From Geothrix sp. 21YS21S-2 (GTDB lineage Bacteria; Acidobacteriota; Holophagae; Holophagales; Holophagaceae), in NCBI RefSeq assembly GCF_030846775.1, contig NZ_CP132910.1, forward strand, positions 468,001 through 532,000: a stretch of DNA of 64,000 nt. The letters are read 5' to 3'. Shown here one piece after another: positions 23,493 through 41,924 of this stretch. Position 1 is the first letter of the stretch. Each line of letters starts with the position of its first letter. A model generated the notes under the pieces. It searched no databases, was not told where the DNA came from, and saw nothing but the letters and a program-made list of their open reading frames with translations. Position numbers and translations under genes: made by a program.

Positions 23493-24755
23493 ATCTTGGT
23501 CATTCAGGTTAGAAGGCCACCTGGAAGGCGGCGATCAGCGTATCCCCGCCCTGCTCGGAGGTCTGGCCCGCCGCGGCGTTGGGCTTGAGGAAGTTCTTGC
23601 TGCGGAGGATGTAATTCAGCTTCAGGTTTGCGGCTTTAACTTTGGCGGGACTGAACGCATAGGTGTAACCGATTGTGGTCTCGGTGAATTTGGGGCTGTA
23701 GTCGGTGGCCGTGGAGATGTAGGGACTGGCAGCCGTGTACCACTGGTCGCCGCTGTTGTAGTTCATCAGGTCGTAGCGTGCCAGAAGCGTATGAGGGCCG
23801 AAGGTGTAACCCGTGGTGACGTAGTAGCCGGCGAACTTCTGATCCAAGTGCTCACGGCCGGCTACGCCCGCCTGAGCGCCCACGCTGGGAGAGCGACGGC
23901 CCAGGAGGCCCGTGATGTATTCGGCCGAGACCTGAAGGCCACCGGACTTGAACGTATAATACGCCCCCATGTTGGTCGTCTTGTCCTTGTTGTCCAGGAC
24001 CAGGGCGTTGGTGGGAACGGCGACGCCCGAGAACGTCTTGCCCAGGAGGGCGCCCTTGTCCGTCTGATCCGTGGAACCTTGGAGGGTGTAGGCGCCGAAG
24101 GCATGGCTGGCGCCCACATTGAAGTCAGCGCGGAGGACGAGGTCCTTTCCCGCGTTGGTGTCCCCGGCCTTGCCCGAAGCCAGGTCGGATACGCCGTTGA
24201 AAGCGCCGGCGGAGAACTTGCCTCCGAAGCCCTTGGCATCGCCGAAGGGCACGGCCAGCACCAGGCCCCGATCGCGCTTGTCTCCGAACACACGACCCAG
24301 TTGGCTGCGTTCCGCGAAGAGCAGTTCGGAGGAGCTGATGTTACCTTCATAAGTCTGAAGCGTCTTGAACTGGCCCACCTTGGCTTGAACACCCATGAAG
24401 CTGTAGGTGATGAAGACATCCTGCAGAACGGTGGGATTGTAGGACGCGTTGCTGTTGGTGGCGTTCGCGGACGTGGTGTTGATCGACGGATCGATCATCA
24501 CCTGGTACTCGACCCCGGGGAGGATCGGCCCCTTGATGCTTAGCTCCGTGCGGCGGAGGTTGAAGCCATTCTCCTTGAATTCGCTGCGAAGGTTGTAGTA
24601 GTTGGCCACGCTGTTCAGGCGGAGGTTGCTGTCCATCATCTGCGTGTACCAGACCTGGACCAGGTGGCCTTTCCCCAAATTGAGAACCAAGTGGAAGGTT
24701 AGTCCTCGGTTAAATTGGGGGCAAAAAGACCGCCAAGCCGCAGGCTTGGTCGGGT

Positions 24756-25745
24756 TCATGATACCTTCTCCGCTGCCTGGGTGGAGGATAGAGCGCCGGA
24801 GGGATCCGACTCGAGCGCCATCCCAGGGGCCTGCACTGCAGGAGCAAGGGGGCCGCGTGCGGTCCTCTTGCTGACCGCGGGTAGGCCCCAAGGCGGTAAA
24901 TCCCGGGGGTCCGGGGGCAGAGCCCCCGACTTGGAAAGCCGGGCAAACTCCCTGGGCGTATAGAATCCGAGGCTGGAATGCGGGTGGCACTCGTTGTATC
25001 GCTTGCTGAAGGCCTTGATGATGACGGCGGCCTCCCGCACGCCGTGGAAGGTTTCCTGGTTAAGGCATTCGTCCCGGAACCTGGCGTTGAAGCTCTCGGC
25101 GTAGCCGTTCTGCCAGGGCTTGCCGGGGTCGATGAGGTGAGTGTCGATGCCCAGGTCCCCGATCCATAATTTCAGGTCGATGGCGATGAACTCTGAGCCG
25201 TTGTCGCTGCGCAAGAACTTGGGTACGCCGCGCTCCTGGAAGACCCGGGCCAGCACGCCACGGACCTGAAGGGAATTGAAGGTGTGCCCAACCTCGATGG
25301 CCAGCGACTCCCGAGTGAACTCGTCTTCCAAGGTCAGGAACTTCAAGGAGACGCCATTGAACGACCAGTCGAAGACGAAGTCGTAGGTCCAGACATGGTT
25401 GATGAACTCGGCCTTCCGAGGAACGCTGTCCCCGGTCCTGATTTTCTTCCGCCTTGGCCGCCGAGAAACCTGAAGGCCGTACTTCTGCCAGATGCGGTTC
25501 ACGGCTTTGATGTTGATGACGACGCCGCTGCGCCGGAGCAGGGCCCAGACGCGGTTCTGCCCGTAGCGAGGGTGTTCGGCGCTCAGGGCCTTGATCAGGT
25601 CAGCCTGGTGGTCCTGGGGCTTGGGCCGGGCTTGGTAGCGCTGCCCAGTCCTTGTGATGCCCAGAAGCACAGCGATCCTGCGCTCCGAAATCCCTTCAGC
25701 CTTCAAGAGCCTTACCCCCTCGCGTTTCTGAGGAGCGCTCACCAT
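24756..25745 (-). CDS. IS3-family transposase OrfB (DDE integrase)
   Basis: The 329-residue OrfB has an N-terminal HTH_21-like region (HPRYGQNRVWALLRR), then the rve integrase core. The catalytic triad is visible as Asp in VWTYDFVFD, Asp in FLRSDNGSEF and Glu in NGYAESFNARFRDECLN, with the D35E spacing of IS3. It is in the -1 frame relative to OrfA and is probably made mostly as the OrfAB fusion by frameshifting. The last 50 residues after TPREFARLSK are extra and Pro-rich. Confidence 0.93.
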   Translation of the reverse strand: MVSAPQKREGVRLLKAEGISERRIAVLLGITRTGQRYQARPKPQDHQADLIKALSAEHPRYGQNRVWALLRRSGVVINIKAVNRIWQKYGLQVSRRPRRKKIRTGDSVPRKAEFINHVWTYDFVFDWSFNGVSLKFLTLEDEFTRESLAIEVGHTFNSLQVRGVLARVFQERGVPKFLRSDNGSEFIAIDLKLWIGDLGIDTHLIDPGKPWQNGYAESFNARFRDECLNQETFHGVREAAVIIKAFSKRYNECHPHSSLGFYTPREFARLSKSGALPPDPRDLPPWGLPAVSKRTARGPLAPAVQAPGMALESDPSGALSSTQAAEKVS

Positions 25746-26008
25746 TTTTTTGCGAGCAGTTCCTTCATGGCGTCGATCTCGACGTCCCGCTGCCCAAGGA
25801 GCCGCAGGAGGCGAGCGTTGTCCTTCTCCAACTGCTTGAGCTTCCGGACGTCCTGCACGGTGTTCCCGGAGAACTTGTTCCGCCACCGGTAGAAGGTCAC
25901 CTCGGAGACGCCGGCCTTTTTGCAAAGCTCGGTGATGGTGTTTTCGCCTCGTTCTGCCTCACGCAGAAGGGCGACGATCTGCTCGTCGGTGAGCTTGGGC
26001 TTGCGCAT
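25739..26008 (-). CDS. IS3-family transposase OrfA
   Basis: The 89-residue OrfA has a HTH_Tnp_1 helix-turn-helix (KLTDEQIVALLREAERGENT, AGVSEVTFYRWRNKF) that binds the element ends, followed by a leucine-zipper-like helix (LEKDNARLLRLLGQRDVEID). It ends LLAKKW. The codons for AKK contain a run of seven A (GCAAAAAAATGG), a fit site for -1 frameshifting into OrfB, which starts six bases before the OrfA stop. Confidence 0.92.
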   Translation of the reverse strand: MRKPKLTDEQIVALLREAERGENTITELCKKAGVSEVTFYRWRNKFSGNTVQDVRKLKQLEKDNARLLRLLGQRDVEIDAMKELLAKKW

Positions 26009-26286: not shown

Positions 26287-28389
26287 TCAGGATCGTCGAA
26301 GGGCCGCCGAGGCCGTTCGCCCCTTGGCATAGATGTGCGCCTGGCTCCGGAAGGGGGGCCAGGTGGTGTCGAGGCCCCGGCCGATCACGCTGCCATCCCT
26401 TCCCAGGGCACGGCCCTTGAGTGTGTCGTGAAGTTGGTCCTCCAGCATTTCCACCACCTGGGATGCCAGGGCGGCATCCACTAGGGGAAAGGCGATCTCC
26501 ACCCGGTTGTCCAGGTTCCGGGTCATCAGGTCCCCGGAGGAGAGCAAGGTTTCGGAGGCTCCGCCGTTCTGGAAGTGGTACACGCACGCGTGCTCCAGGA
26601 ACCGGTCGATGATGGAAATGGCGCGGATGTTCTCGGAGAGGCCAGGTACGCCCGGCCGGAGGCAACAGGTACCCCTCACGAGCAGATCGACCTTCACACC
26701 GTCCCGGCTCGCCTCATACAGGCCCTGGATCATCGCCGGATCCACAAGGGCATTCATCTTGAGGATCATCCTGGCCTCACGCCCATTCCGGGCATGGTCC
26801 CGTTCCCGCTGGATCCGGTTCCAGATTCCCTGGCGAAGTCCTTGGGGGGCGATGAGAAGCCGGTGGCATTCCGGAAGGCGGGCATAACCCGTGAGCAGAT
26901 TGAAAAGATTGGAAAGATCCTCCCCGAATTCCGGGCGCGCCGTGAGCAGGCCCAGGTCGCAATACAACCTCGAGGTCTTCTCGTTGTAGTTGCCCGTCGA
27001 GAGGTGGCAATAGCGTCGCATCCCGGTGGCTTCCTGGCGGATGACCAGACAGGCCTTTCCGTGGATCTTGAACCGGGGCATCCCATAGACCACGTGGGCC
27101 CCCGCCTTTTCCAGGCGCCGGGCCCAGGCGATATTCCCTTCCTCGTCGAACCGGGCCCGGAGTTCGATGATGGCCGCGACCTGTTTGCCGCGCTCAGCCG
27201 CCAGTTCGAGAGCCACGGCGATGGGGCTGGATTCCGTGATCCTGTAGAGCGTGATCTTGATCGCAAGGACCTTTGGGTCATTCGCAGCCTCGCGGATGAA
27301 GCGCACCACGCTGTCGTCGAAGCTCTGGTAGGGGTGAAGGAGCAGGATGTCATTCCGGCTGATGGCTTCGAAAAGGGATGGCACAGCCTCGATCTGGGGC
27401 ACCGGCCGTGGCGGGGTGGCGAGGTCCTTGAGGTGGGGCAGATCCAGTTGGGCATAGAGCTGCATCAGGTCCGAGAAGGCCGCGAATCCCTCCGTGGGGT
27501 ACAAATCCTCTGGGGCCAGTTCCAGTTCGTCGATGAGCAGCTTCAGGAGCCCCGGGCTCAGGCCTGCCTCGTACTGGAGGCGCACCACGGCGCCCCTTCG
27601 GCGGCTTCGAAGAAATTCCTCCACCGTATCCATGAGATCTTCACCGCTGCTCTCCTCCACGGGGAGATCCGAATCCCGGGTGACCCTAAGGGCGTGGCAA
27701 TTCCTGATTTCATAACCCTGGAAGACGTGCTTCAAGTTCATCCGGACCACATCCTCCAGCATCACGAAAGCATGGGTGCCCCTGGCAGAGGGGACGCGAA
27801 GGAAACGGGTGGACAGCGTTGTGGGCACATGGATGATCGAAAGGCTGGACGCGGGGAAGGGTGCCTTGCCCGCGTAGGCCGAAGCTTCCAGTTCCGCCAT
27901 GAGGACCAGAACCCGATTGCCAAGGCGGGGGAAGGGATGGCCCGTGTCCACCGCCAGGGGGGAGATGAGGGGCAGGAGGTTGTGTTCGAAGTAAGCCTGG
28001 AGGAATTCCGTTTGCGCCGGGTCCAGATCCCCGGGTTTGAGGATGGCGATGCCTTCCGCGTTCATGGCGGGTTCAATGGACTGGTGCAGAACCCGATGCT
28101 GACGGGAAGCCAGAATGTGGATCCGCTTCGCCACTGCGTCCAGCAATTGACGTGGCGCCAGTCCGTCAGGGCCCGGCTGGGTCACTCCGGCATCGATCTG
28201 ACGATAAATTCCGGCCACCCGAACCATGAAAAATTCGTCCCAGTTGGATGAAACAATGGCGAGGAACTTCACGCGTTCCAGGAGGGGCACGGAGGGGTCC
28301 TCGGCTTCTTCCAGGACCCTTTCGTTGTACGCCAGCCAGCTCAGCTCCCGGTTGAGGAGGTCGTCCGGTCCAGGAACATGTTTATCCAT
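26287..28389 (-). CDS. ppk1: Polyphosphate kinase 1
   Basis: From the ATG at 28389 the enzyme has 700 residues, the usual length. It starts with the N domain (LLNRELSWLAYNERVLEEA), and the head and C1/C2 domains follow. The autophosphorylated histidine lies in RFKIHGKACLV near residue 442 and the second conserved histidine in CHLSTGNYNEKTSRLYCD near 461. The ALDxPAMI-type loop near NALVDPAMIQGLYEAS is also typical. It makes polyphosphate from ATP at the membrane. The split phosphate porin directly upstream on the same strand suggests a joint phosphate uptake and storage role. The upstream frame extension to 28500 looks non-coding. Confidence 0.97.
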   Translation of the reverse strand: MDKHVPGPDDLLNRELSWLAYNERVLEEAEDPSVPLLERVKFLAIVSSNWDEFFMVRVAGIYRQIDAGVTQPGPDGLAPRQLLDAVAKRIHILASRQHRVLHQSIEPAMNAEGIAILKPGDLDPAQTEFLQAYFEHNLLPLISPLAVDTGHPFPRLGNRVLVLMAELEASAYAGKAPFPASSLSIIHVPTTLSTRFLRVPSARGTHAFVMLEDVVRMNLKHVFQGYEIRNCHALRVTRDSDLPVEESSGEDLMDTVEEFLRSRRRGAVVRLQYEAGLSPGLLKLLIDELELAPEDLYPTEGFAAFSDLMQLYAQLDLPHLKDLATPPRPVPQIEAVPSLFEAISRNDILLLHPYQSFDDSVVRFIREAANDPKVLAIKITLYRITESSPIAVALELAAERGKQVAAIIELRARFDEEGNIAWARRLEKAGAHVVYGMPRFKIHGKACLVIRQEATGMRRYCHLSTGNYNEKTSRLYCDLGLLTARPEFGEDLSNLFNLLTGYARLPECHRLLIAPQGLRQGIWNRIQRERDHARNGREARMILKMNALVDPAMIQGLYEASRDGVKVDLLVRGTCCLRPGVPGLSENIRAISIIDRFLEHACVYHFQNGGASETLLSSGDLMTRNLDNRVEIAFPLVDAALASQVVEMLEDQLHDTLKGRALGRDGSVIGRGLDTTWPPFRSQAHIYAKGRTASAALRRS

Positions 28390-31291: not shown

Positions 31292-33373
31292 ATGCAGAGA
31301 CGAGAAATCCTGGTTTCAGCCCGCCCCGGGGATCCACCGAGCCGAGTGGATTGGGTTTCCCTGGTGGACCATCAGGAATCCATCCCGATGGGCCTTACCG
31401 TCGAACAAGCTTATGGCTGGTTCCGGGATCATGCCCAGGACTTTGCCGCCGTGGTTGACGGTGGGACGTACATCGGCCTCATTTCCCGTGGACATCTGGG
31501 CTTCCTCCTTGGAACCCGCTTCGGGTTCACCCTTCACAGCCGGCATTCAATCCAGGACCACATGCTCCCTGAGAGCCTTGTGGCAACCTCGACGATGAAC
31601 CTGATGGACGTGCTTGAAGCGGCCTTGTGCCGGACGGGGGACGCCTTCTACCACGATGTGCCCGTGGTGGACCTGGACCGGCGGTTCCTCGGAATCATTC
31701 CGGTGCCGTCCCTGGTCCGGGCGCAGTCCTCGGTTATCGCCGAACAGTTCAATCTCGCGGAGACTCAGCGGCAGGAACTTCTCCTGAGAAATCAGGATCT
31801 ATTCCGGAGCGTCCACCAGTTGCGCCAATCACAGGGACGCTACGAGACACTCTTCCAGAACAGCCCTGTCGGAGTCGCCCTTCTGCAGCGGGACGGACGG
31901 ATCGAGGCCTACAACGGCAAACTGCAGGAACTCCTGGGGACAAGGCCCGAAACAGGCACTCCAGGTTTGAACCTGGCCGACTTGATTCCCCCGAACCATC
32001 GCAGTTCCTTCCTCGAACTGCTCAGTCTCCACGAATCCGGCGCCATGCTTCCCGCCAACCATGCCAACGAGTTCCCGATCAACTTCCCGGGACCAGGGGA
32101 ACGCCTTTTCAAGCTATATACCTCCCTGGTGCGTGAGACCGGTCAGATCTGCACCATCTTCCACGACATAACCGAACAGCGCGTGGTTGAACGCAAACTC
32201 GCCATCCAGGACAAGGCTGCGCTGATGGAATCCCTGGTTGGGGGCATCGCCCATGAGTTGAACAACAAGCTTTCTCCGGTACTCGGGTTCGCCGAGCTTC
32301 TGGAAGTCCGGTTGCGGGCCCTGGAAGGCCAGGATGTCCTGGAGAACTACTGCGGCGCCATCACGCGGAGCGCCCAGGAGTGCGTGCGCATCATCCGGCA
32401 GCTCCTCCAACTGTCCCGACCGGCCACCATGGAACTCCACCCTGTGGACCTCCACGGCATCCTCGATGAAGTGGTCTCGATCATGCGCTTCAGGATCCGG
32501 GGAGCGGACGTCAAGCTTGATCTCACCCTGCCTGAAGAGGGGCTCCGGATTCTGGCCGATGCGCCCCAGATCAAACAGGTATTCGTAAATATCCTGATCA
32601 ATGCGGTGGATGCGATGGATCATTCGAGCCGCAAGGACCTCACGGTCAGCGTTGAAACCGTCCCGGGAGGGTGGGCGGCCGTTTCCGTGCGGGACACGGG
32701 TCATGGCATTCCCCCGGATAAACTAAACCGGATCTTCGATCCCTTCTACACCACCAAGAGCTCGGAGCGGGGAACCGGATTGGGACTTAGCGTCTGCCTT
32801 GGCATTGTCCGGCAGCACTGGGGAGAGATCTCGGTGAACAGCATCCAGGGGGAAGGAACGGAATTCAAAGTCCTGCTTCCCCTCGCGCCTTCCGACCCAA
32901 AGACCGTCCCGGAATCCCTGGAAGCCACCCGCAAGGTTGATCCTCATGCCACAAGGCCTCCAGAGCCGGCCAAGGGTACCGACGTCAACGTGCTGGTCAT
33001 CGATGATGAAGAGTACATCACGAGTTTGGTGCAGGAGTTGCTCCGAAGCTTTCTTGGATGGCGCGTCGAACGCGTACATGACGGACGGGAGGCCATCCAC
33101 CGGATGGAAACCGCCTCCTTCGACCTGATCATCACGGACCTTCGGATGCCCGGCCTCGACGGGTTCGCCATCCTGAACTGGGTCCGCGACTTCCGCCCGT
33201 CCCTGGTCAGCCGGGTGCTGGTGATCACTGGGGACCCTGGCAGCGCCGTCCTGGACCAGGATCTCCTGGAACTCGAAGTTCCAGTGCTCCGCAAGCCCTT
33301 TACACCCCAGGAACTCCTGGCCCAGTGCCGGGACCTGCTCCAGCCAACCCTGACAACGTCCCCCCGGAGCTAG
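31292..33373 (+). CDS. Cytoplasmic hybrid histidine kinase with CBS-like sensor
   Basis: The 693-residue kinase has an N-terminal CBS-like region (FAAVVDGGTYIGLISRGHLG, DVPVVDLDRRFLGIIPV), a coiled linker, a PAS domain (YETLFQNSPVGVALLQRDG), HisKA box GGIAHELNN with His near 319, HATPase (NAVDAMD, RDTGHGIPPDKL, RGTGLGLSV) and a receiver with phospho-Asp in LIITDLRMPG near 614. There is no membrane helix, so it senses an internal ligand, perhaps a nucleotide. It ends four bases before the PP2C phosphatase, which carries a similar CBS-like region, so both likely answer the same signal. Confidence 0.92.
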   Translation: MQRREILVSARPGDPPSRVDWVSLVDHQESIPMGLTVEQAYGWFRDHAQDFAAVVDGGTYIGLISRGHLGFLLGTRFGFTLHSRHSIQDHMLPESLVATSTMNLMDVLEAALCRTGDAFYHDVPVVDLDRRFLGIIPVPSLVRAQSSVIAEQFNLAETQRQELLLRNQDLFRSVHQLRQSQGRYETLFQNSPVGVALLQRDGRIEAYNGKLQELLGTRPETGTPGLNLADLIPPNHRSSFLELLSLHESGAMLPANHANEFPINFPGPGERLFKLYTSLVRETGQICTIFHDITEQRVVERKLAIQDKAALMESLVGGIAHELNNKLSPVLGFAELLEVRLRALEGQDVLENYCGAITRSAQECVRIIRQLLQLSRPATMELHPVDLHGILDEVVSIMRFRIRGADVKLDLTLPEEGLRILADAPQIKQVFVNILINAVDAMDHSSRKDLTVSVETVPGGWAAVSVRDTGHGIPPDKLNRIFDPFYTTKSSERGTGLGLSVCLGIVRQHWGEISVNSIQGEGTEFKVLLPLAPSDPKTVPESLEATRKVDPHATRPPEPAKGTDVNVLVIDDEEYITSLVQELLRSFLGWRVERVHDGREAIHRMETASFDLIITDLRMPGLDGFAILNWVRDFRPSLVSRVLVITGDPGSAVLDQDLLELEVPVLRKPFTPQELLAQCRDLLQPTLTTSPRS

Positions 33374-33376
33374 ATC

Positions 33377-34666
33377 ATGGCCAAGATGGAACAACTGCAC
33401 GCAATGCTGGCCAGGTCCCTGGCTTCGACCCTGGAGGACCGCTCGATCGACATCGTCAACCAGGCCCGGGACCTCTTGCATGAACGGCCTGTGGTCCAGT
33501 TGGATACCACCAACGAAGAAGTTCGCGTGTTCCTGGCCGGCCACCCGGACCTGGAGGTGGTGGCTGTCGTCAACGAACAGAACCGCCCCATCGGCCTCAT
33601 CAACCGCTTCATCTTCGCCGAGGCCTATGCCCACCCCTTCGCAAGGGAAGTGTATGGCAAACGGTCCTGCATCGCGTGGATGGACAAGGATCCCTTGGTC
33701 CTGGACGAGGAAACAGGCATCGAGGCGCTCATCAAGGCGGCCCTGGCCAAGGGCCCCAGGGTCCTCAAGGACGGGTTCATCGGTACGCGGGATGGCCGCT
33801 ACATCGGCCAGGGAACAGGGTTCGCCCTGATGAAGGCCATGGAGGCTCTGGAGACCGAGCGGTCCCGGCAGGTCATGGAGAGCATCGAATACGCGAGCAC
33901 CATCCAACGCTCCCACCTCCGCACGTCCAACCTTCATCTGGCCGAGACGCTGAAGGACTATGCCCTTCATTGGGCTCCCCGGGACGTGGTGGGCGGGGAT
34001 TGCTATTTCTTCCGGCGCACGCAGGCCGGTCTTTTCGGCGCCATCGTCGACTGCACGGGGCATGGCGTTCCCGGAGCCTTCATGAGCCTCATCACCCTTT
34101 CCTTCCTGGGCTTCCTGATCGGGGATGGTCAGGAGCGGGTCGGGCCCGGCCAGGCTCTTACCCTGCTCAACCAGCACATCAAGGCCGTGCTCTCACAGGC
34201 CCAGGCGCCGGAGATGGAGGCCTGGGAAGCCGATTCCCTGCGTGTATCCGACGATGGTCTGGACGCAGCCTGCTTCCTTCTCGCTCCGGACGGGACCAGG
34301 CTGGTATTCGCCGGTGCCCGGATGCCGATGTTCCTTGTCAACGAGGACCCGGAGGAAAGCCGGATCATCGAAGCCGAGCGCATGGGCGTGGGGTACGTCG
34401 GCACGCCCGATGACCACCTCTGGCTGGAGCAGGACGTGTCACTGCCTTGCGGAAGCAGGGTGGTGATCCCCACGGACGGCATCACGGACCAGGTCGGTGG
34501 TCCCAACGGCTTGTCCCTGGGCCGGAGGCGGCTCATGGAGTGGCTCATTGGCACGCGTACGCTGTCCGCGGAGGCCATCGGGCAGCGCTTCCTTGACCTT
34601 CTCGGGGCATGGCAGGGGGAGCAGGTGCGCCGGGATGATGCGACGTTTCTCGTGTTCACGCCCTGA
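33377..34666 (+). CDS. SpoIIE/PP2C phosphatase, SiaA-like, with CBS-like N-terminus
   Basis: The 429-residue protein has a CBS-like first half (VFLAGHPDLEVVAVVNEQNR, PIGLINRFIFAEAYAH, LVLDEETGIEALIKAALAKG) and a C-terminal PP2C/SpoIIE domain: VVGGDCYFF near 205, DCTGHGVPGAFMS near 223 and VRRDDATFLVF at the end, which hold the metal-binding aspartates. In the Pseudomonas SiaABCD system SiaA is the PP2C phosphatase that removes phosphate from SiaC. Here it converges on siaD 8 bases away and is cotranscribed with a histidine kinase. Unlike SiaA it has no membrane or HAMP part. Confidence 0.88.
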   Translation: MAKMEQLHAMLARSLASTLEDRSIDIVNQARDLLHERPVVQLDTTNEEVRVFLAGHPDLEVVAVVNEQNRPIGLINRFIFAEAYAHPFAREVYGKRSCIAWMDKDPLVLDEETGIEALIKAALAKGPRVLKDGFIGTRDGRYIGQGTGFALMKAMEALETERSRQVMESIEYASTIQRSHLRTSNLHLAETLKDYALHWAPRDVVGGDCYFFRRTQAGLFGAIVDCTGHGVPGAFMSLITLSFLGFLIGDGQERVGPGQALTLLNQHIKAVLSQAQAPEMEAWEADSLRVSDDGLDAACFLLAPDGTRLVFAGARMPMFLVNEDPEESRIIEAERMGVGYVGTPDDHLWLEQDVSLPCGSRVVIPTDGITDQVGGPNGLSLGRRRLMEWLIGTRTLSAEAIGQRFLDLLGAWQGEQVRRDDATFLVFTP

Positions 34667-34674
34667 AGGCTCCA

Positions 34675-35529
34675 TCAGCCGGGGCCTACCCCAAAATCGG
34701 GACTCACGCGATTCCTGCCTGCCTCCTTGGCGGCGTAGAGCCGGGAATCGGCCCTCGCCATCAGGGAGGGAAAGGACTCCTCGCCCTCAAGCTGCGCGAC
34801 TCCGATGCTGACGGTAATCCGGAAGGGCGTCTGGCCTGCGGTCATCTCCCAGGCTTCGACGGCAACCCGCATCCGGTGGGCGACCTCGCATGCCTCCGTC
34901 AGGCTTGTCTCCGGCAGAAGCACGCCGAATTCCTCCCCGCCGATTCTCCCGATGGTATCCATCGCCCGGAGGCAGGGGCGGCATAGCTGGACGAAGCGCA
35001 CCAAGGTCTCATCACCTGCTCCGTGGCCATACGTATCATTGACCCGTTTGAAATGATCGAGATCCAGGGCGAGGCAACTCATGCCTCGGCGTGTGCGGAG
35101 TTCCCTCTTGTGTTCATAGTCCCCAAGCTCGAGGAACCTCCGCCGGTTGTATACGCCGGTCAGGGGATCCGTGGTCGCCAGCACCCGGAGCTCCACTTCG
35201 AGGGCCTTCCTGGATTCCACTTCATGGGCCAGTTCCGTGTTCAGGATGAGGAGGTGCTTCGCCTGTTCCTCCAGGAGGCGGGACTTGTCTGAGAGTTCCT
35301 TGCTCACCGCTCGAAGCTGGGCCTGCTGCCGGTCACTCCCTCGCATGAGCCGGTGCTGTTCACGGGCACTCCGCTGGAAGGCTTCGATCAAGTCCCCGAT
35401 GGTCCTCCCCAGGCCGGCAGCGTCCTCAGGATGGTCCTCCAGGAAGGCCGCGGCCTTGCGGATGACGCCATTCTCCTGGTCCAGGAGATCGAAGGCCGGT
35501 TCAGATCTGGATGAGTTCGAAATGGACAT
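34675..35529 (-). CDS. siaD: GGDEF diguanylate cyclase (SiaD-like)
   Basis: The 284-residue cyclase has a helical N-terminal part with a coiled coil (about 50-115, matching the SiaC-binding stalk of SiaD) and a full GGDEF domain: TDPLTGVYNRR, the active-site GGEEF at 197-201 and an inhibitory RxxD site (RAMD, 188-191) at the usual spacing. It makes c-di-GMP from two GTP. The gene starts 29 bases inside the end of siaC, so expression is coupled. In Pseudomonas, SiaD is active only when bound to unphosphorylated SiaC. Confidence 0.93.
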   Translation of the reverse strand: MSISNSSRSEPAFDLLDQENGVIRKAAAFLEDHPEDAAGLGRTIGDLIEAFQRSAREQHRLMRGSDRQQAQLRAVSKELSDKSRLLEEQAKHLLILNTELAHEVESRKALEVELRVLATTDPLTGVYNRRRFLELGDYEHKRELRTRRGMSCLALDLDHFKRVNDTYGHGAGDETLVRFVQLCRPCLRAMDTIGRIGGEEFGVLLPETSLTEACEVAHRMRVAVEAWEMTAGQTPFRITVSIGVAQLEGEESFPSLMARADSRLYAAKEAGRNRVSPDFGVGPG

Positions 35530-35881
35530 TCTTGAGCTCCCCTGAAAAGTCCTCGCCGAATTCCCGCATCACGTCATCGTCTTCCTGGACAAGCCAGCGG
35601 ATGACCACGCGTGTTCCATCCGAGGCCGTGGCTTCCAGGATCTGGATGAGATTCATGAGGGCCTTGGCGCTGCTGGTGTTGAAATAGATGAGCTGGAAGT
35701 CCACCCGCAATTCCCGCCCATGGATGGATTCGCAGTGGGACGCCAGGGCCTTCAGGAGGGGGCCGAAAAACGAGGCCGCATCTTCCGGGTAGGCCTCCCC
35801 CCGCAGGGACAGGTGGTTTTCGGTGAAGCGGAAATCCACTTCCGGGGATCGCTCGCGGGCGGGAAGGTAGATGTTCTCCAT
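35501..35881 (-). CDS. siaC: SiaC-like (DUF1987) regulator of SiaD
   Basis: From the ATG at 35881 this is 126 residues, the same length as Pseudomonas SiaC. It shows the family core LIYFNTSSAKALMNLIQIL; Thr69 corresponds to the threonine that the kinase SiaB phosphorylates and SiaA dephosphorylates. The unphosphorylated form binds and activates SiaD. The preceding siaB ends 14 bases upstream and siaD overlaps downstream, so the order siaB-siaC-siaD is that of the known operon. The frame upstream of 35881 overlaps siaB and is not needed. Confidence 0.92.
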   Translation of the reverse strand: MENIYLPARERSPEVDFRFTENHLSLRGEAYPEDAASFFGPLLKALASHCESIHGRELRVDFQLIYFNTSSAKALMNLIQILEATASDGTRVVIRWLVQEDDDVMREFGEDFSGELKNVHFELIQI

Positions 35882-35895
35882 GGCGGGCTCCGGGT

Positions 35896-36486
35896 TCAGA
35901 TGAAAACTTTCATGCAATAGAAGGTGGTCTGGCCGTCGATGGCCAGGAAATCAAACTGGATCGGTTCACTGGCCCGGCGGGCTATCTCGATGAGGCCCAG
36001 GTTCGCCCCCTTGCTCCCGGGGCTGGCGGGGTCCATGATCCGCTCCCGGTAGTAGGCCTTGATGCCGGCCGGGTCCAGGCCCCGGAGGATCTCAAGGCGG
36101 GCCTGGAGCGGCTCGGCATCCTCGCGCCGCATGACATTGCCGCACACCACGAAAAAGCGGCCCTCTTCGGTTCCCACTGTGATCAGGCCTGAACGGAACT
36201 GCGGGCCTTCCCTTTCAGGGTCGCCGAGGATCTCGGCGGAGTACCTGATGATGTTCTGGGCCTGCTCCACGAAGACCGAGAAGACACGCTTGATCGTGGT
36301 GACGTTGGTCTCGTCGGCGGACATCTTCTTCTTCAGCGCGTCCCCGAGGGCGAACAGGATGGTTTCGGAGATGAAGCCGTTGAAGGAGAATAGGATTCCC
36401 TTCCGGGCGCTCTCGGTCTTCATGCGGAAGTGGTCGGATGCCAGCATGGGGGACGTCTCCAGGGAGTCGTTGGCGGGGGGGATCAT
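35896..36486 (-). CDS. siaB: SiaB-like threonine kinase (DUF6272)
   Basis: The 196-residue protein resembles SiaB, an ATPase of the HATPase fold that phosphorylates SiaC. Helix EQAQNIIRYSAE (74-85) carries the N-box Glu and Asn, and GANLGLIEIARRAS near 161-174 is the glycine lid. Core strands FVVCGNVM and FDFLAIDG fit the fold. It starts at the stop of the pseudokinase gene (ATGA overlap). A second start at 36444 (MLASDHF) would remove 14 N-terminal residues; both are possible. Confidence 0.9.
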   Translation of the reverse strand: MIPPANDSLETSPMLASDHFRMKTESARKGILFSFNGFISETILFALGDALKKKMSADETNVTTIKRVFSVFVEQAQNIIRYSAEILGDPEREGPQFRSGLITVGTEEGRFFVVCGNVMRREDAEPLQARLEILRGLDPAGIKAYYRERIMDPASPGSKGANLGLIEIARRASEPIQFDFLAIDGQTTFYCMKVFI

Positions 36487-38153
36487 GGTTTTACCTGGAC
36501 TTCCACCCAGTCCCGAACGGGTTTTCCGCCCCGGAGTGCCGGAAGGTACCGGCCCTTCAGGACGGTTTCCATGGCCGCCTGCGCGGCTTTCGAACCCGGT
36601 GCCGGGCCCGCCACGGGGGTGGCGCGCAGTGCGTGACCATCCTCGTGCACGAAGACCCTCAAGACTACGGGGACCTTGGGTTCTCCTTGGGGCCAGGGCA
36701 CGGGTGAAAGGCTTCTGACCTGGGCGGGCCGGTCCTGGGTGACGGCAACCGGGGAAGCGTTGGGCGCAACGTCCTTGATGGGCGCCGCGCCGGGCGCGGC
36801 CTTCGGGTTGGCAGGGAAGGGGCCGGTGGGCTCCAACCGGGAGACCGGGGCGGGTTCTTCCCGCCCCGGCATTGCGGATGCCTGCCGTGCCGGTTTTTCC
36901 GCCTGGAGGTGTTCAAGTTCCATCCCCAGCCGTCTCCGTTGTTCCGCATTGGTGGCGGTGGTCGCCGCGCGTTCGAGTCCTTCCTTCAACAGCAGGTGGG
37001 TCCGTTCCAGGGACGCGGCATCCGTACCCTTCTGGACCTGCAGTTGGTAGGTGCTTCTCAAGGAGGCGAGCTCCGTTTCCAGACCCTGCCTGGAACGTTC
37101 CATGTGCCTCAGAGTGAGGAAGCCCGCCACGGCTGCGCAGGCGGCCACCAGGATGCCCGCGACCGTGATGCCCGCATACGTCCTCTTCGGGCCGGACACC
37201 TGAAGCTGGTCCGGGGACCCGGAAGCTTCGACCCACCAGCTTTCATGAGTTCTCAGGGCCTCCAACTCCTTTTCGAGCTGGTCCTGCTGGCTCGTATAGT
37301 CCTGACGGAAAAGGGTGTGCATCAAGTGGGCCAGATTGAAAGTGGAAGGACCGTCCTCATCCTCGAAGACGATCTTCTCGAATGCCTTCAGTGCGCCTTC
37401 AAGCGTCTCGAACGGCATTCCGCCGCCAAGGAGGCGGGCCAGGCCATTCCGGACCGCCTCTGGAAGGGCCACAGGACCCTCGGGAGTCCAGGCCTGGGCT
37501 TGTCCAATGGCCTCTGCCGGCGAGACCCCCGCGGGCAGAGCTTCGAAGGTGATCAGCTCGTAAAGGAACGTTCCGAAACGCAGAGCCTCGTCGCGAAGGT
37601 CCCCCGTCACCGGTCCCCGGGGAAGGCCCGGCAGGGCGGAGCGGAGCCCGGGCTCTTCATCCGCAAGGCGGATGAGGGTCGGCATCCAAGCCAGGTCCGG
37701 CAGGAACAGGCTGCCTTCAAAATCCACCCGTACGGAATCCAGGCTGAGGGCGCCAACGCTCTGGCCCGCGCGCCAGAACTTCGCGCACACATGGGCAAGG
37801 GTCCAGGCGATGTGCAGGGAGAGTGCGAGATCCAGCGGGAAGGCTTCCTCCCGGCACTTTTCCTGGATGCGGCGGATGCTCCGGCTCATCCGGTGGTCCA
37901 GCTTCCAATGGGGGGCAGGGTTCGTTCCGAACTGGTGGCCCGTCCCACAGGATGGAGGAACGTCCTGAGAACGCTGGCTGGCCTCCAACGCCGAAGTCAC
38001 CTGGGGAAGCAGAAGCTCCGGCGCGAACCGACGCAGGAATATCGGGCGCGTCTCCCCTTCCGCATCCCGCTCCCAGGCCCGGCTGAGGGTGCCGAGGCCA
38101 TCCGTGACGAGCTCCTGGGCGACAAGGATCGGACCAAAGGTGCTGAAACCCAT
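36483..38153 (-). CDS. Pseudokinase membrane protein with TonB-like tail
   Basis: From the ATG at 38153 the protein has 556 residues. The first 300 look like a degenerate Ser/Thr kinase C-lobe (TLAHVCAKFWRAGQSVGALS, LDSVRVDFEGSLFLPDLAWM, DEALRFGTFLYELITFEALP) without a clear HRD or DFG motif. A transmembrane helix follows (TYAGITVAGILVAACAAVAG), then a coiled coil, a Pro-rich spacer and a C-terminal VVLRVFVHEDGHALRATPV ... AAMETVLKGRYLPALRGGKP resembling TonB_C energy-transfer domains. It sits between the PstS-like gene (1-base gap) and siaB (4-base overlap). It could carry a signal from the periplasm to SiaB; that is inference. Confidence 0.75.
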   Translation of the reverse strand: MGFSTFGPILVAQELVTDGLGTLSRAWERDAEGETRPIFLRRFAPELLLPQVTSALEASQRSQDVPPSCGTGHQFGTNPAPHWKLDHRMSRSIRRIQEKCREEAFPLDLALSLHIAWTLAHVCAKFWRAGQSVGALSLDSVRVDFEGSLFLPDLAWMPTLIRLADEEPGLRSALPGLPRGPVTGDLRDEALRFGTFLYELITFEALPAGVSPAEAIGQAQAWTPEGPVALPEAVRNGLARLLGGGMPFETLEGALKAFEKIVFEDEDGPSTFNLAHLMHTLFRQDYTSQQDQLEKELEALRTHESWWVEASGSPDQLQVSGPKRTYAGITVAGILVAACAAVAGFLTLRHMERSRQGLETELASLRSTYQLQVQKGTDAASLERTHLLLKEGLERAATTATNAEQRRRLGMELEHLQAEKPARQASAMPGREEPAPVSRLEPTGPFPANPKAAPGAAPIKDVAPNASPVAVTQDRPAQVRSLSPVPWPQGEPKVPVVLRVFVHEDGHALRATPVAGPAPGSKAAQAAMETVLKGRYLPALRGGKPVRDWVEVQVKP

Positions 38154-38154
38154 G

Positions 38155-39102
38155 TCAACGCTCCAGGCTGAGGAGCTGCTTCTCGAGCAGATCCCTGCCC
38201 ACGGGAACGGATCCATATTCCTGGACCAGGCGCTGCCCCTGGGGGCCGAGGATGAACTTCAGGAAGGCCAGCGGGGCCTCGGGCAGCGGTTTGCCGGGTT
38301 CCTTGTCCACGTAGATGTTGAGGCGCCGGGTCAAGGGATAGCGGCCGTTGAGGATGTTCTCCGTGGAGGGCATGTAGTACATCCCTGAGCAAGCGAAGAC
38401 GGGGAGCATCTTCACGTCCGAACTGGCGTAGTTGGCGGGGCCGTAGCCGATGCCCGCGGGGTCCTTGCTGACGGCCTCCTCGATGCCCCACTGGTCACGC
38501 GCCTGGTAGCCGGCCCGAATAATTCCGCCCTTGCCCAGCACCTTCTCGTCGAAGAAGACGCGTGACCCGCTCTTCTCATCGCGACCGTAGACGTGGATTG
38601 GACGTTTTCGCCAACGGCCGCCCGCTCCAAGTTCTCCCCACAGCCCCAGGGGCCTGTCCCAGCCGGAAAGCCGGGTTGTGGAGTAGATGGCGTCGAGCTG
38701 TCCGAGGGCGATCCTGCGCACGGGATTGCCCCTGTGGACGTAGATGGCGAGGGCGTCCATCGCCACCACCAGCCGGGTGACGGGGAAGCCCCGGCGGGAC
38801 TGGAAAGCCGCCTGTTCTTCAGGGTTCATTTCCCGGCTCATATGGCCCAGACGCACCTCGCCTGCCGTCAAGGCGGGAGGGGCCGTATTGGAACCGGGGC
38901 TCTCGATCTTGATTTCAACCTTGGGGTTCTGTTTCTGGAATTCGGAGATCCACAAGCGAATGAGGGGGTCCATGGAATCCGAGCCCTTCATCGAGAAGTG
39001 GCCTTCGATGGCGGATTTTTCTGGCTGTACGTCGCCCGCCGCGAAGGCGAATGCCGTTACGCCAAGACTCAGGAATGCCAGGGCCACCATACGTTTCAAC
39101 AT
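38155..39102 (-). CDS. PstS-like periplasmic phosphate-binding protein
   Basis: The 315-residue protein has a signal peptide (MLKRMVALAFLSLGVTAFAF AA) and the type II periplasmic binding fold of PstS: GSDSMDPLIRLW with the phosphate loop near residue 40, APPALTAGEVRLGHMSREM, then RDEKSGSRVFF and GIGYGPANYA. Such proteins bind phosphate in the periplasm. No pstCAB transporter genes are here; instead the pseudokinase and siaBCD genes follow in one operon, pointing to a sensory rather than transport role. A strong AGGAGG precedes the start. Confidence 0.9.
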   Translation of the reverse strand: MLKRMVALAFLSLGVTAFAFAAGDVQPEKSAIEGHFSMKGSDSMDPLIRLWISEFQKQNPKVEIKIESPGSNTAPPALTAGEVRLGHMSREMNPEEQAAFQSRRGFPVTRLVVAMDALAIYVHRGNPVRRIALGQLDAIYSTTRLSGWDRPLGLWGELGAGGRWRKRPIHVYGRDEKSGSRVFFDEKVLGKGGIIRAGYQARDQWGIEEAVSKDPAGIGYGPANYASSDVKMLPVFACSGMYYMPSTENILNGRYPLTRRLNIYVDKEPGKPLPEAPLAFLKFILGPQGQRLVQEYGSVPVGRDLLEKQLLSLER

Positions 39103-39236: not shown

Positions 39237-41924
39237 TCAGATGGCTCTTCCCAGACCTACCACCCGCATCATCTCATCCAAGATCTGATCCGCCCGATAG
39301 CTCCCTGCCGTGGCCAAGGCCCGGTTCCGGAACGCTTCCCGTTCGGCGGGAGGCAGCTTCATGTAGGCGGACGCGCGTTGGCCCATGTCCATGGCGTCCT
39401 CGCACACCAGGCCGTTGACCCCCTCTTGGATCAGGTCCGCAGGCCCTTTGACCGGGTAGCACGCCACCGGCAGGCCGCAGCTCAGCGCCTCCAGGACCGC
39501 GCAGCCGAAGGTGTCGAAGCGTGACGGGAAGAGCAGCAGGGAACTGGCCCGGAACCAGCCCGCGAGGGTCGCGCGGTCCACCCAGCCTGGGAAGTAGGCT
39601 TCCGGAGCCAGGCCCCTGAGCTTGCCTTCGGCAGGCCCGCGGCCCGCAATCACCAACTGGGCTGTGGGGATTTCCCGCTGGATGAGCCGCCAGGCATCAA
39701 CGACTTCAAGGACACCCTTCTCCTCGGAAAGGCGCCCCACGTAGAGAAGGATCGGGCGGTCCGGGTCGATCTCGGGCGGCAACGCTGGATCCTCCCCGGC
39801 CTCCGGCACATACTCCGGAGCCGCCCAGTGGGCGGTGAGGTGGAGGCGGTCGCGGGGGATCTCCATGGCTGGGCCGGCCAGCCATTCGACATGTTGCCGG
39901 TTCAGGACGAACAGTCCCTCCCATTGGCGATAGAACCACCGGAGGAGGCGCCGGGCCCGGTCCAGGCCCTGCTGGTCCAGTTCGGAGTTGTGCACCAGGA
40001 ATTCCAGCCAATCGGTGTGCATGAAGAAGTGGGCAGGGAGCCTCAGGGCGTGCTTGAGGAAGAGCCCCACCCAGCCCATGACGCCTTCGGTGGAGACGAT
40101 CAGCCGGTCGTAACCCTCGGCTTCCACCAGGCGCAGCACCTCCAGGAGATCCGGAATGCGGATGGGCTGATCTCCGAAACCCGGCAACGTGAAGGACTCC
40201 AGGGGGCGCACGACCCGCAGGTGGGTTTCGGACGTCTGCTCCCCATGGCAGATGAGGAAGTCCACCGGCAGATCCCTGCGCCGCACTTCGGCCAGTACGG
40301 ACTGAAGGGCGCTGGAGACGCCGTTGCCGTCGAAGAAGGTATCGGTCAGCCACAGCACCCGCCGGGGATGCCCGGTTCCCCCGATACCGGCGGCAAGGCG
40401 GTTCATCAGCTCGCGGCCGCCGTGCAGGTGGTGGGCTGCGATCCCGGAGGCTCCGGCCAGCATGGTCGTCATGAGGCTCGGGAACGTCAGGTCGTCCAGG
40501 ACCGCCGACACTTGCACGGCGCTCATGGAACGCGGCTCCTTGGGACGCTCGTTGCCCAGGATGGCGCGGAAGTGGCTGGGGACCTCCAGGTGGGCGATCC
40601 AGTCATCAAGGCGCAGCGGGCGGCCGCCCTCCTCCGCGGCCCACCGCGCCGCGATCGGTCCGAGCCCCTTGCGGGCCCTGTGGAGGGTGAGCTTCATCAT
40701 CCCGCTGAAAAGGTCGGAAAGGGCCTCGCGGAGGGTTCCGGGCAAGTCCTCGGGGCGTTTCCGCGCCACTTTCGAGATGTGCTCGAGGTGTTTCAGGAAG
40801 GGCTTGTAGTCCTCCTTCACGGTCAGCTTGAGCATGACGCCCGGCTTCTCTCCCTGCAGGCTGGCGTGCCAGGCCTTGAGGAAGCGCATGGTGTAGGCGT
40901 GCCGGCGCAGCTCGGCCAGCCCGTTGGCCACGACCAGGCACCCGAACTTGTCGGAGGCCTCGCCCTTGTGGAGCAGGATCCGGAGCAGGCCGGGATCCTC
41001 GAATTCCACGGCCGCCTGGGAGAGGAAATCAAGCACGGCACCCGTGAGGTTCTCCTGTTCCACCGCCCGGCCAAAGGGCCCCATGCGCTTGGCGCGGAGG
41101 GCTTCCAGGGCAAGCCGCGAAGGGGGTTCCCCGGCTTCCAGGCGTTCGGCGAGGTCAGGCACCTGCAACCAAGTGCCCGTCAGGCCCGCGAAGACGCCGA
41201 AGTGGTCGTCCGACCCTCCGGAGATGGCCTTCTTCCAGGGGTCGGCGCAGAATTCGAAGGGGTCCAGGCCGTGTTTGCGGGCATACCCGTTCAGCTTCTC
41301 GGGATCCATGGCCGAGACCCATTCCCAGGCCAGGAGGTTCTGCCAGGGGTCCCGCTGGCCGTTGAAGACCTCGAAGCGCTCGAACAACAGGGAGAACTTC
41401 TCGAAGACGTCCAGGTGGGGCTGGCGGTCGCGGGTGTAGAAGTAGAGCGGATGGGGCTGAATGACCGGCAGGTCGTGCTTCCGGCAGTACCGTAGGAAGG
41501 CGTAGATGTCCCGGCGTCTGCTTTCCAGCTCGTGTTCCTGTTCAGGGGTGAACCCGTAGACCAGGACGTGGATGGCGAGGTCGTATTCCGGAAACTGGCA
41601 GGTCCACTCCGCGGCGCTCAGGACGTCCTTGCCCTGTTCCGCCAGCTCCCAGCAGGACCGGGCATTGTTGTGGTTGGTGACGGTCCAGGCCGTGGCGCCC
41701 CGCTTGCGGAGGAGCTTGTGCAGCCGGCGCGGCTCCACCCAGGACTCGGGCAGGCGCAGGATCCGCCCCCACAGCTCGTCCGGCATATCGGAGTGCTTGT
41801 CGTGGCAGTGGAGGTCGATGCGCAGGGCCTCCCCATCGGGACCGCTGGCGTCAAGGCGTCCCGTCAACCTCTGCAGCAGGCCGGCGCGGAAGGAGGGGTC
41901 AGGGAGGAAGGTGGGTTCCGACAC
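39237..41924 (-). CDS. PHP-domain / GT4 glycosyltransferase fusion protein
   Basis: The 895-residue protein joins a PHP-type metal phosphoesterase-like N-terminal half (IDLHCHDKHSDMP near 36-48, TVTNHNNA, HVLVYGF, QPHPLYFY, GGSDDHFGVFAG) to a C-terminal GT-B glycosyltransferase of the GT4 type (ILLYVGRLSEEKGVLEVVDA, LVIAGRGPAEGK, LLLFPSRFDTFGCAVLEALS, the E-x7-E motif). The GT4 half is best related to enzymes that build phospho- and glycolipids. A middle segment of about 200 helical residues links them. The glycosidase-like gene follows upstream. The combined activity is not known. Confidence 0.88.
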   Translation of the reverse strand: MSEPTFLPDPSFRAGLLQRLTGRLDASGPDGEALRIDLHCHDKHSDMPDELWGRILRLPESWVEPRRLHKLLRKRGATAWTVTNHNNARSCWELAEQGKDVLSAAEWTCQFPEYDLAIHVLVYGFTPEQEHELESRRRDIYAFLRYCRKHDLPVIQPHPLYFYTRDRQPHLDVFEKFSLLFERFEVFNGQRDPWQNLLAWEWVSAMDPEKLNGYARKHGLDPFEFCADPWKKAISGGSDDHFGVFAGLTGTWLQVPDLAERLEAGEPPSRLALEALRAKRMGPFGRAVEQENLTGAVLDFLSQAAVEFEDPGLLRILLHKGEASDKFGCLVVANGLAELRRHAYTMRFLKAWHASLQGEKPGVMLKLTVKEDYKPFLKHLEHISKVARKRPEDLPGTLREALSDLFSGMMKLTLHRARKGLGPIAARWAAEEGGRPLRLDDWIAHLEVPSHFRAILGNERPKEPRSMSAVQVSAVLDDLTFPSLMTTMLAGASGIAAHHLHGGRELMNRLAAGIGGTGHPRRVLWLTDTFFDGNGVSSALQSVLAEVRRRDLPVDFLICHGEQTSETHLRVVRPLESFTLPGFGDQPIRIPDLLEVLRLVEAEGYDRLIVSTEGVMGWVGLFLKHALRLPAHFFMHTDWLEFLVHNSELDQQGLDRARRLLRWFYRQWEGLFVLNRQHVEWLAGPAMEIPRDRLHLTAHWAAPEYVPEAGEDPALPPEIDPDRPILLYVGRLSEEKGVLEVVDAWRLIQREIPTAQLVIAGRGPAEGKLRGLAPEAYFPGWVDRATLAGWFRASSLLLFPSRFDTFGCAVLEALSCGLPVACYPVKGPADLIQEGVNGLVCEDAMDMGQRASAYMKLPPAEREAFRNRALATAGSYRADQILDEMMRVVGLGRAI

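Follow-up and report, generated by a model that had tools for sequence, protein, structure and literature searches.

Does a periplasmic ligand, captured by a PstS-like binding protein and relayed by a membrane pseudokinase, feed into the Sia proteins and hence into the level of cyclic dimeric guanosine monophosphate (c-di-GMP)? The question is raised by a five-gene operon on the minus strand of a 64,000-nt stretch of Geothrix sp. 21YS21S-2 (contig NZ_CP132910.1, positions 468,001-532,000; hereafter the window, meaning the whole stretch), whose genome is a single contig of 5.25 Mb. The signal that reaches the Pseudomonas aeruginosa SiaA protein has been described as unknown (PMC7278518). The operon runs in the order PstS-like gene, membrane pseudokinase gene, siaB, siaC and siaD (Table 1), with a single base (38154) between the first two genes, a 4-base overlap (ATGA) of the pseudokinase stop and the siaB start, 14 bases between siaB and siaC, and a 29-base overlap of siaC and siaD. 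These coordinates agree exactly with the original prediction, which had read from them a new input branch to c-di-GMP. A scan for promoters and terminators, in which site counts were at chance level, gave no site of either kind on this strand inside the operon, and nothing resembling a terminator from 39400 to 34675. Comparison with related genomes shows that the conserved unit is the pair of PstS-like and pseudokinase genes, and not the five-gene operon.

The five-gene order is present in none of the 76 other genomes of the bacterial order, and the five congeners likewise lack the arrangement. Although siaB occurs in nine of the 77 genomes, it is preceded by PstS and pseudokinase genes in the window genome only, and an alignment of the paired PstS proteins, scanned against genome contigs among which the window's own genome records may have been left out, picked up six loci, all of them lacking the five-gene order. 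A conserved five-gene order, which had been proposed as the first check on the new branch, was therefore rejected. The pair itself recurs in four more Holophagaceae genomes of other genera (G054, G057, G061 and G063), all without siaB, the two genes overlapping by 4 bases in G054 and G057, being 7 bases apart in G061, and lying on separate contigs in G063. G061 and G063 belong to one genus, and in both the paired PstS gene follows a gene for an EAL-CBS-GGDEF protein (94% identical between the two), in G063 at the contig end. The series in G061 (L110) runs phoB-like, phoR-like, EAL-CBS-GGDEF, PstS, pseudokinase, a gene of unknown function, Porin_O_P, phoU, pstB, pstA, pstC and pstS, several of these names having been assigned by eye. 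The contig concerned (JAIFMW010000111.1) is titled Deltaproteobacteria, yet the genome is placed in the window's family, and the paired PstS gene of G057 (L113:6730-7008) contains about 280 non-PstS-like bases between residues 228 and 229, an assembly error or an insertion. Among the open papers searched, we found no report of a pairing of PstS with a pseudokinase, or of a binding protein with SiaB/DUF1987.

The PstS-like protein scores 105.6 bits against PBP_like_2 (cut-off 27) and 194.7 bits against the TIGR02136 PstS family, slightly below the cut-off of 206.6, and its nearest solved structures are those of P. aeruginosa PstS (4omb/4pqj, E-value 6e-66). It keeps the motifs GSDS, GSxT and MSRxM, together with R174 and S178-G179-S180; Ser180 takes the place of the Thr in the SGT of pst-operon PstS (SGT to SGS), and DQW stands in place of its PGSSS, a change that further solo members of the PstS family have in part as well. 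Phylogenetic inference places the paired PstS proteins in a supported clade (98/97) separate from pst-operon PstS. The absence of a phosphate transporter, also part of the original prediction, is right for the operon: no pstC, pstA or pstB lies in the neighbourhood of the PstS-like gene, and a full pstSCAB-phoU set (C1:716.5 kb) and a Pit-like permease, recognized by eye, are found elsewhere in the genome.

Judged by its sequence, the second gene encodes a pseudokinase with a kinase fold and lost catalytic motifs. The layout comprises a kinase-like domain (residues about 1-290), a transmembrane (TM) helix (about 328-347), a coiled coil to about 427, a disordered Pro/Ala-rich linker, and a small TonB_C-like alpha/beta domain (about 478-556). 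The pseudokinase identity is borne out by a profile of ten relatives, which matches Ser/Thr kinases of the PDB (PknA, profile positions 8-243, E-value 3e-6) and at its C-terminal end gives a weak match to TonB2, and by an AlphaFold2 model (mean predicted local distance difference test score 83.5, predicted template modelling score 0.58) in which the kinase-like domain (4-286) resembles known kinase domains (Foldseek E-value 6e-8; Z about 21, root-mean-square deviation 3.3-3.6 over 257 residues). Relative to PknA in the profile alignment, the Lys of VAVK is replaced by Arg, HRDxKPxN reads HGxLSPHS in the profile and VGALSLDS in the window protein, and DFG reads DAP and PDLA, respectively. Hydropathy analysis revealed only one strong hydrophobic segment (324-352), after the 290-residue pseudokinase domain, and the protein probably crosses the membrane once, with its C-terminus outside. 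For the predicted TonB tail, the TonB_C match of the window protein is weak and below the cut-off (15.2 bits against 24.6), but relatives exceed it (29.1 and 30.4 bits). A TonB-type N-terminal TM anchor is not present, the TM segment being central. Relatives with the same layout occur throughout the Acidobacteriota, most of them, among the surroundings read, without an adjoining PstS gene; in other families of the phylum (L138, L140, L142, with L139) the pseudokinase-TonB_C gene repeatedly lies near genes that resemble, by eye, ruvX (YqgF), mltG and an acetyl-CoA acetyltransferase gene, with no PstS.

The remaining operon genes encode recognizable Sia proteins. SiaB scores 139.1 bits against DUF6272/SiaB and 197.3 bits against NF038262 (cut-off 85), falls below the cut-off of the strict equivalog NF038264 (120.4 bits, cut-off 225), and aligns with SiaB of 6kko (E-value 1.9e-24) with the catalytic-glutamate region retained. 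SiaC matches PF09345 (126.9 bits), and its Thr69 aligns with the SiaC phospho-acceptor Thr68 (6kko_C; YLNTSS/YFNTSS). SiaD, encoded downstream of siaC, carries a GGDEF domain (PF00990, 145 bits) with a GGEEF motif, matches SiaD 7e6g from residue 59 onward (E-value 6e-29), and scores 172.8 bits against the equivalog NF038266, below the cut-off of 290. The SiaA of P. aeruginosa is a HAMP protein located in the membrane, and SiaD is activated there by the unphosphorylated form of SiaC (PMC7647112, PMC8457831, PMC7278518); SiaC phosphorylation and SiaD activity are set by SiaA and SiaB (PMC7278518, PMC8457831). The window operon contains no membrane HAMP-type SiaA, and the sole SiaA relative at the locus, located outside the operon, is a soluble protein of 429 aa with a CBS-type N-terminus and a SpoIIE phosphatase domain (PF07228, 65.6 bits), which aligns with SiaA-PP2C 6k4e (E-value 1.2e-29) and retains the acidic metal-site motifs; its residues 30-165 and the CBS region of the EAL-CBS-GGDEF protein are related. 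Because this only SiaA relative is convergent and CBS-type and matches NF038263 (136.3 bits) only within its phosphatase region, the locus is a variant Sia branch and not a canonical SiaABCD system. A second, canonical siaABCD locus lies in the same genome (C1:4125618-4129314; L066:5619-9315); its SiaA has 664 aa, and there is no PstS gene near it.

CBS-type Sia loci, defined by a CBS-type SiaA, window-type siaBCD or both, number eight in the order, and a PstS-like gene is found close to four of them, namely the window and three others spanning two genera. The gene is divergent from siaA in G052 (L065), is similarly placed with an internal deletion in G051 (L114/L151), and is represented on contig C200 of G070 (L099) by a fragment beside a CBS histidine kinase gene. 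No PstS-like neighbour was seen at two G070 loci on short contigs, at two lone siaBCD loci or, in the stretches read, at the eight canonical siaABCD loci of the order and the 11 SiaB loci elsewhere in the phylum. The enrichment at CBS-type loci has a Fisher p of 0.038 against the eight and 0.004 against all nineteen. About 0.08 such neighbours would be expected by chance within 3 kb, G070 C200 lying slightly beyond that distance. These figures are rough: the survey includes two short contigs, and its gene calling, for which the window served as training set, is sparse in low-GC stretches (L125, L131, L134).

Phosphate genes and c-di-GMP genes also meet outside the Sia loci. In G000, G066, G067, G068 and G069, an orthologue of the EAL-CBS-GGDEF protein is encoded in the pst-phoU-phoB-pit cluster, at a distance of about 8-9 kb from pstS, which suggests that c-di-GMP turnover is coupled to the uptake of phosphate in the window's genus. 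Five of the six genomes searched in this genus hold the gene within a pstSCAB-phoU-phoB-DUF47-pit cluster (L144, L159, L162, L163). The neighbourhoods thus support a link among PstS-like proteins, CBS-type Sia/c-di-GMP genes and phosphate genes. The theme of phosphate, CBS and c-di-GMP recurs in the family, but the five-gene operon in its exact form occurs a single time, and the connection that would be surprising is based on one genome.

Several genes surround the operon. The CBS-PAS-histidine kinase-receiver gene is probably co-transcribed with the CBS-type siaA, and its orthologue (910 bits) lies between siaBCD and the PstS-like gene on G070 contig C200. The glycosyltransferase encoded upstream of the operon, a possible polysaccharide output, has an orthologue in G070 next to a sia locus and another in G069 next to the EAL-CBS-GGDEF gene; Pfam covers its glycosyltransferase part only, and the long N-terminal part resembles, by eye, a PHP-type metal hydrolase (DLHCHDKHSD). 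On the other side of the operon, the window encodes two phosphate-linked proteins, a polyphosphate kinase (26287-28389) and a Porin_O_P protein (23509-24690). The porin gene lies directly downstream of two genes that resemble, by eye, an IS3-type transposase pair (23509-26008 in all).

Table 1. Genes of the five-gene operon, its neighbours in the window, and the EAL-CBS-GGDEF gene of the same genome.
Feature	Position	Strand	Basis
Solo PstS-like periplasmic binding protein, 315 aa	38155..39102	-	PBP_like_2, TIGR02136; Sec-type signal peptide by eye
Membrane pseudokinase, 556 aa (by sequence; start ATG)	36483..38153	-	Kinase profile match, AlphaFold2 model, hydropathy, TonB_C
SiaB-family kinase (start ATG)	35896..36486	-	NF038262, 6kko alignment
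SiaC phosphoprotein (start ATG)	35501..35881	-	PF09345, 6kko_C alignment
SiaD-type diguanylate cyclase, GGEEF (start ATG)	34675..35529	-	PF00990, NF038266, SiaD 7e6g
Soluble CBS-type SiaA-like phosphatase, convergent with siaD	33377..34666	+	PF07228, NF038263, 6k4e
CBS-PAS-histidine kinase-receiver protein	31292..33373	+	Pfam CBS/PAS/HisKA/HATPase/Response_reg
Glycosyltransferase-family-4 protein, upstream of operon	39237..41924	-	Pfam Glyco_trans_1_4
EAL-CBS-GGDEF protein	G000:C1:726148-727878 (L143:11047-12912)		

We tentatively favour, at somewhat less than an even chance, a reading in which the pair forms a periplasm-to-cytoplasm sensor cassette that feeds an input to the CBS-type Sia branch, changing the state of SiaC Thr69, the activity of SiaD and the level of c-di-GMP. 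The secreted PstS-like protein would capture a ligand, most likely inorganic phosphate (Pi), and dock on the periplasmic coil and TonB_C-like part of the pseudokinase, whose cytosolic domain would relay its state by binding and not by phosphorylation. The siaBCD operon to which the cassette is joined has, as its phosphatase, a soluble CBS-type SiaA and no membrane HAMP-type one; the cassette would supply a periplasmic input otherwise missing and shift the balance of SiaB and SiaA on SiaC Thr69, and the shifted state of SiaC would alter SiaD activity and hence c-di-GMP. This reading builds on the observed gene order and spacing, the recurrence of the pair, a kinase fold whose catalytic motifs are altered, the hydropathy signal of a TM segment, intact Sia residues and repeated neighbourhoods. 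We infer the identity of the ligand, the contacts of the pseudokinase with PstS and with SiaB, and the direction of the effect; the action of the pseudokinase on SiaB is suggested by co-location in one genome and by topology.

A number of points weigh against the sensor cassette. In addition to the absence of the five-gene order from the other genomes, no selection on the link from the pair to Sia can be demonstrated, because the arrangement is known from a single genome. The remaining CBS-type Sia loci with a PstS-like gene have no pseudokinase gene, and at two of these loci the PstS gene itself is incomplete. The window pseudokinase has diverged strongly, with an end branch of 2.25 and 28% identity to the closest member of a pair, and all paired pseudokinases group with a weak support of 68/24, which neither shows nor rules out a common origin. 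The enrichment of PstS-like neighbours at CBS-type over canonical Sia loci is weakened by the groups having been drawn after the data were seen and several loci sharing ancestry. The ligand may be other than phosphate, because the SGT Thr is Ser180 and the PGSSS loop is DQW. Finally, a scan for 10-12-base direct repeats and TGTCA-like motifs gave no convincing Pho box upstream of the operon; in the same scan, possible 11-base repeats precede the porin gene of G061, the solo PstS gene of G018 and pstS of G066.

The main alternative, which we consider rather unlikely, treats the pair as a self-contained module that has a job of its own and was placed upstream of siaBCD by rearrangement, so that co-transcription would carry no signalling meaning. 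Such independence is what four genomes with the pair and without Sia, and all other Sia-bearing genomes without the pair, would lead one to expect, and in the congener G070 the neighbouring glycosyltransferase gene adjoins a CBS-type sia locus lacking the pair. Such a rearrangement fits less well, however, with the start-stop overlap and the tight spacing across all five genes, and with the repeated occurrence of PstS-like genes near CBS-type Sia in other arrangements and of paired PstS near EAL-CBS-GGDEF in G061 and G063.

Two further explanations would leave Sia with no input from the pair. The PstS-like protein could be an auxiliary phosphate scavenger for the distant Pst system, with the TonB_C-like end of the pseudokinase aiding an outer-membrane porin or receptor and Sia being only the expression context. 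The G061 pair, which sits with a Porin_O_P gene and a Pst operon, the porin and polyphosphate kinase genes of the window, and the TonB_C scores of the pseudokinase relatives are all in line with this explanation; a central TM helix and a cytosolic pseudokinase domain are nevertheless unlike TonB, and the paired PstS proteins group separately from those of pst operons and have the DQ motif change in common, and we regard this explanation as improbable. Less probable again, to the point of being very unlikely, is a phosphate-independent surface role of the PstS-like protein in adhesion or matrix, as an output of the Sia operon rather than its input: although a glycosyltransferase gene adjoins the operon, the pocket motifs of the protein are largely retained, and the partner with which it is conserved spans the membrane and has a cytosolic domain, an arrangement that fits an input better than an output.

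The new input branch of the original prediction (periplasmic ligand to pseudokinase to SiaB to c-di-GMP) is partly supported: it has the conserved pair and the neighbourhoods of PstS, CBS-type Sia, c-di-GMP and phosphate genes in its favour, but its five-gene operon occurs in one genome. A phosphate-to-biofilm signalling route through this operon is plausible but unproven. In its most far-reaching form, which we think doubtful, external phosphate would set c-di-GMP through a PstS-gated pseudokinase allosterically controlling SiaB/SiaA-SiaC, with no transport, two-component phosphotransfer or transcriptional step, and the same pair would couple to either Sia or EAL-CBS-GGDEF in the Holophagaceae. 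If the sensor cassette is real, a binding protein and a transmembrane pseudokinase in the operon of a Sia branch would give that branch a defined input, and a post-translational route from phosphate to c-di-GMP might exist in addition to the transcriptional one already known. An Acidobacteriota-wide pseudokinase family, for which we found no assigned function, would likewise gain a role through the PstS-pseudokinase pair.

Known systems offer partial parallels. The window SiaB, SiaC and SiaD share the B-C-D gene order and the catalytic and phospho-acceptor residues of P. aeruginosa SiaABCD, but the window operon is led by the PstS-like and pseudokinase genes, and its SiaA is soluble, CBS-type and convergently encoded. 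PknB-type transmembrane Ser/Thr kinases likewise combine a cytosolic kinase fold, one TM helix and an extracytoplasmic sensor part, whereas the window protein has altered catalytic motifs and an outer part made of a coiled coil and a TonB_C-like end. Pi-loaded PstS stimulates the membrane receptor CtpL in P. aeruginosa (PMC4926252), again with a PstS-type protein as a possible ligand shuttle to a membrane receptor; in that species PstS works for the Pst transporter as well, and the membrane receptor is one for chemotaxis (a chemoreceptor), whereas the window combines a solo PstS-like gene with a single-pass pseudokinase partner. In Pseudomonas fluorescens, low Pi lowers c-di-GMP through RapA, and the Pho-RapA-LapD system similarly ties phosphate availability to c-di-GMP and biofilm (PMC3032545); that system acts through expression of a phosphodiesterase under low Pi, whereas the route proposed here would be post-translational, acting through a Ser/Thr phosphorylation switch.

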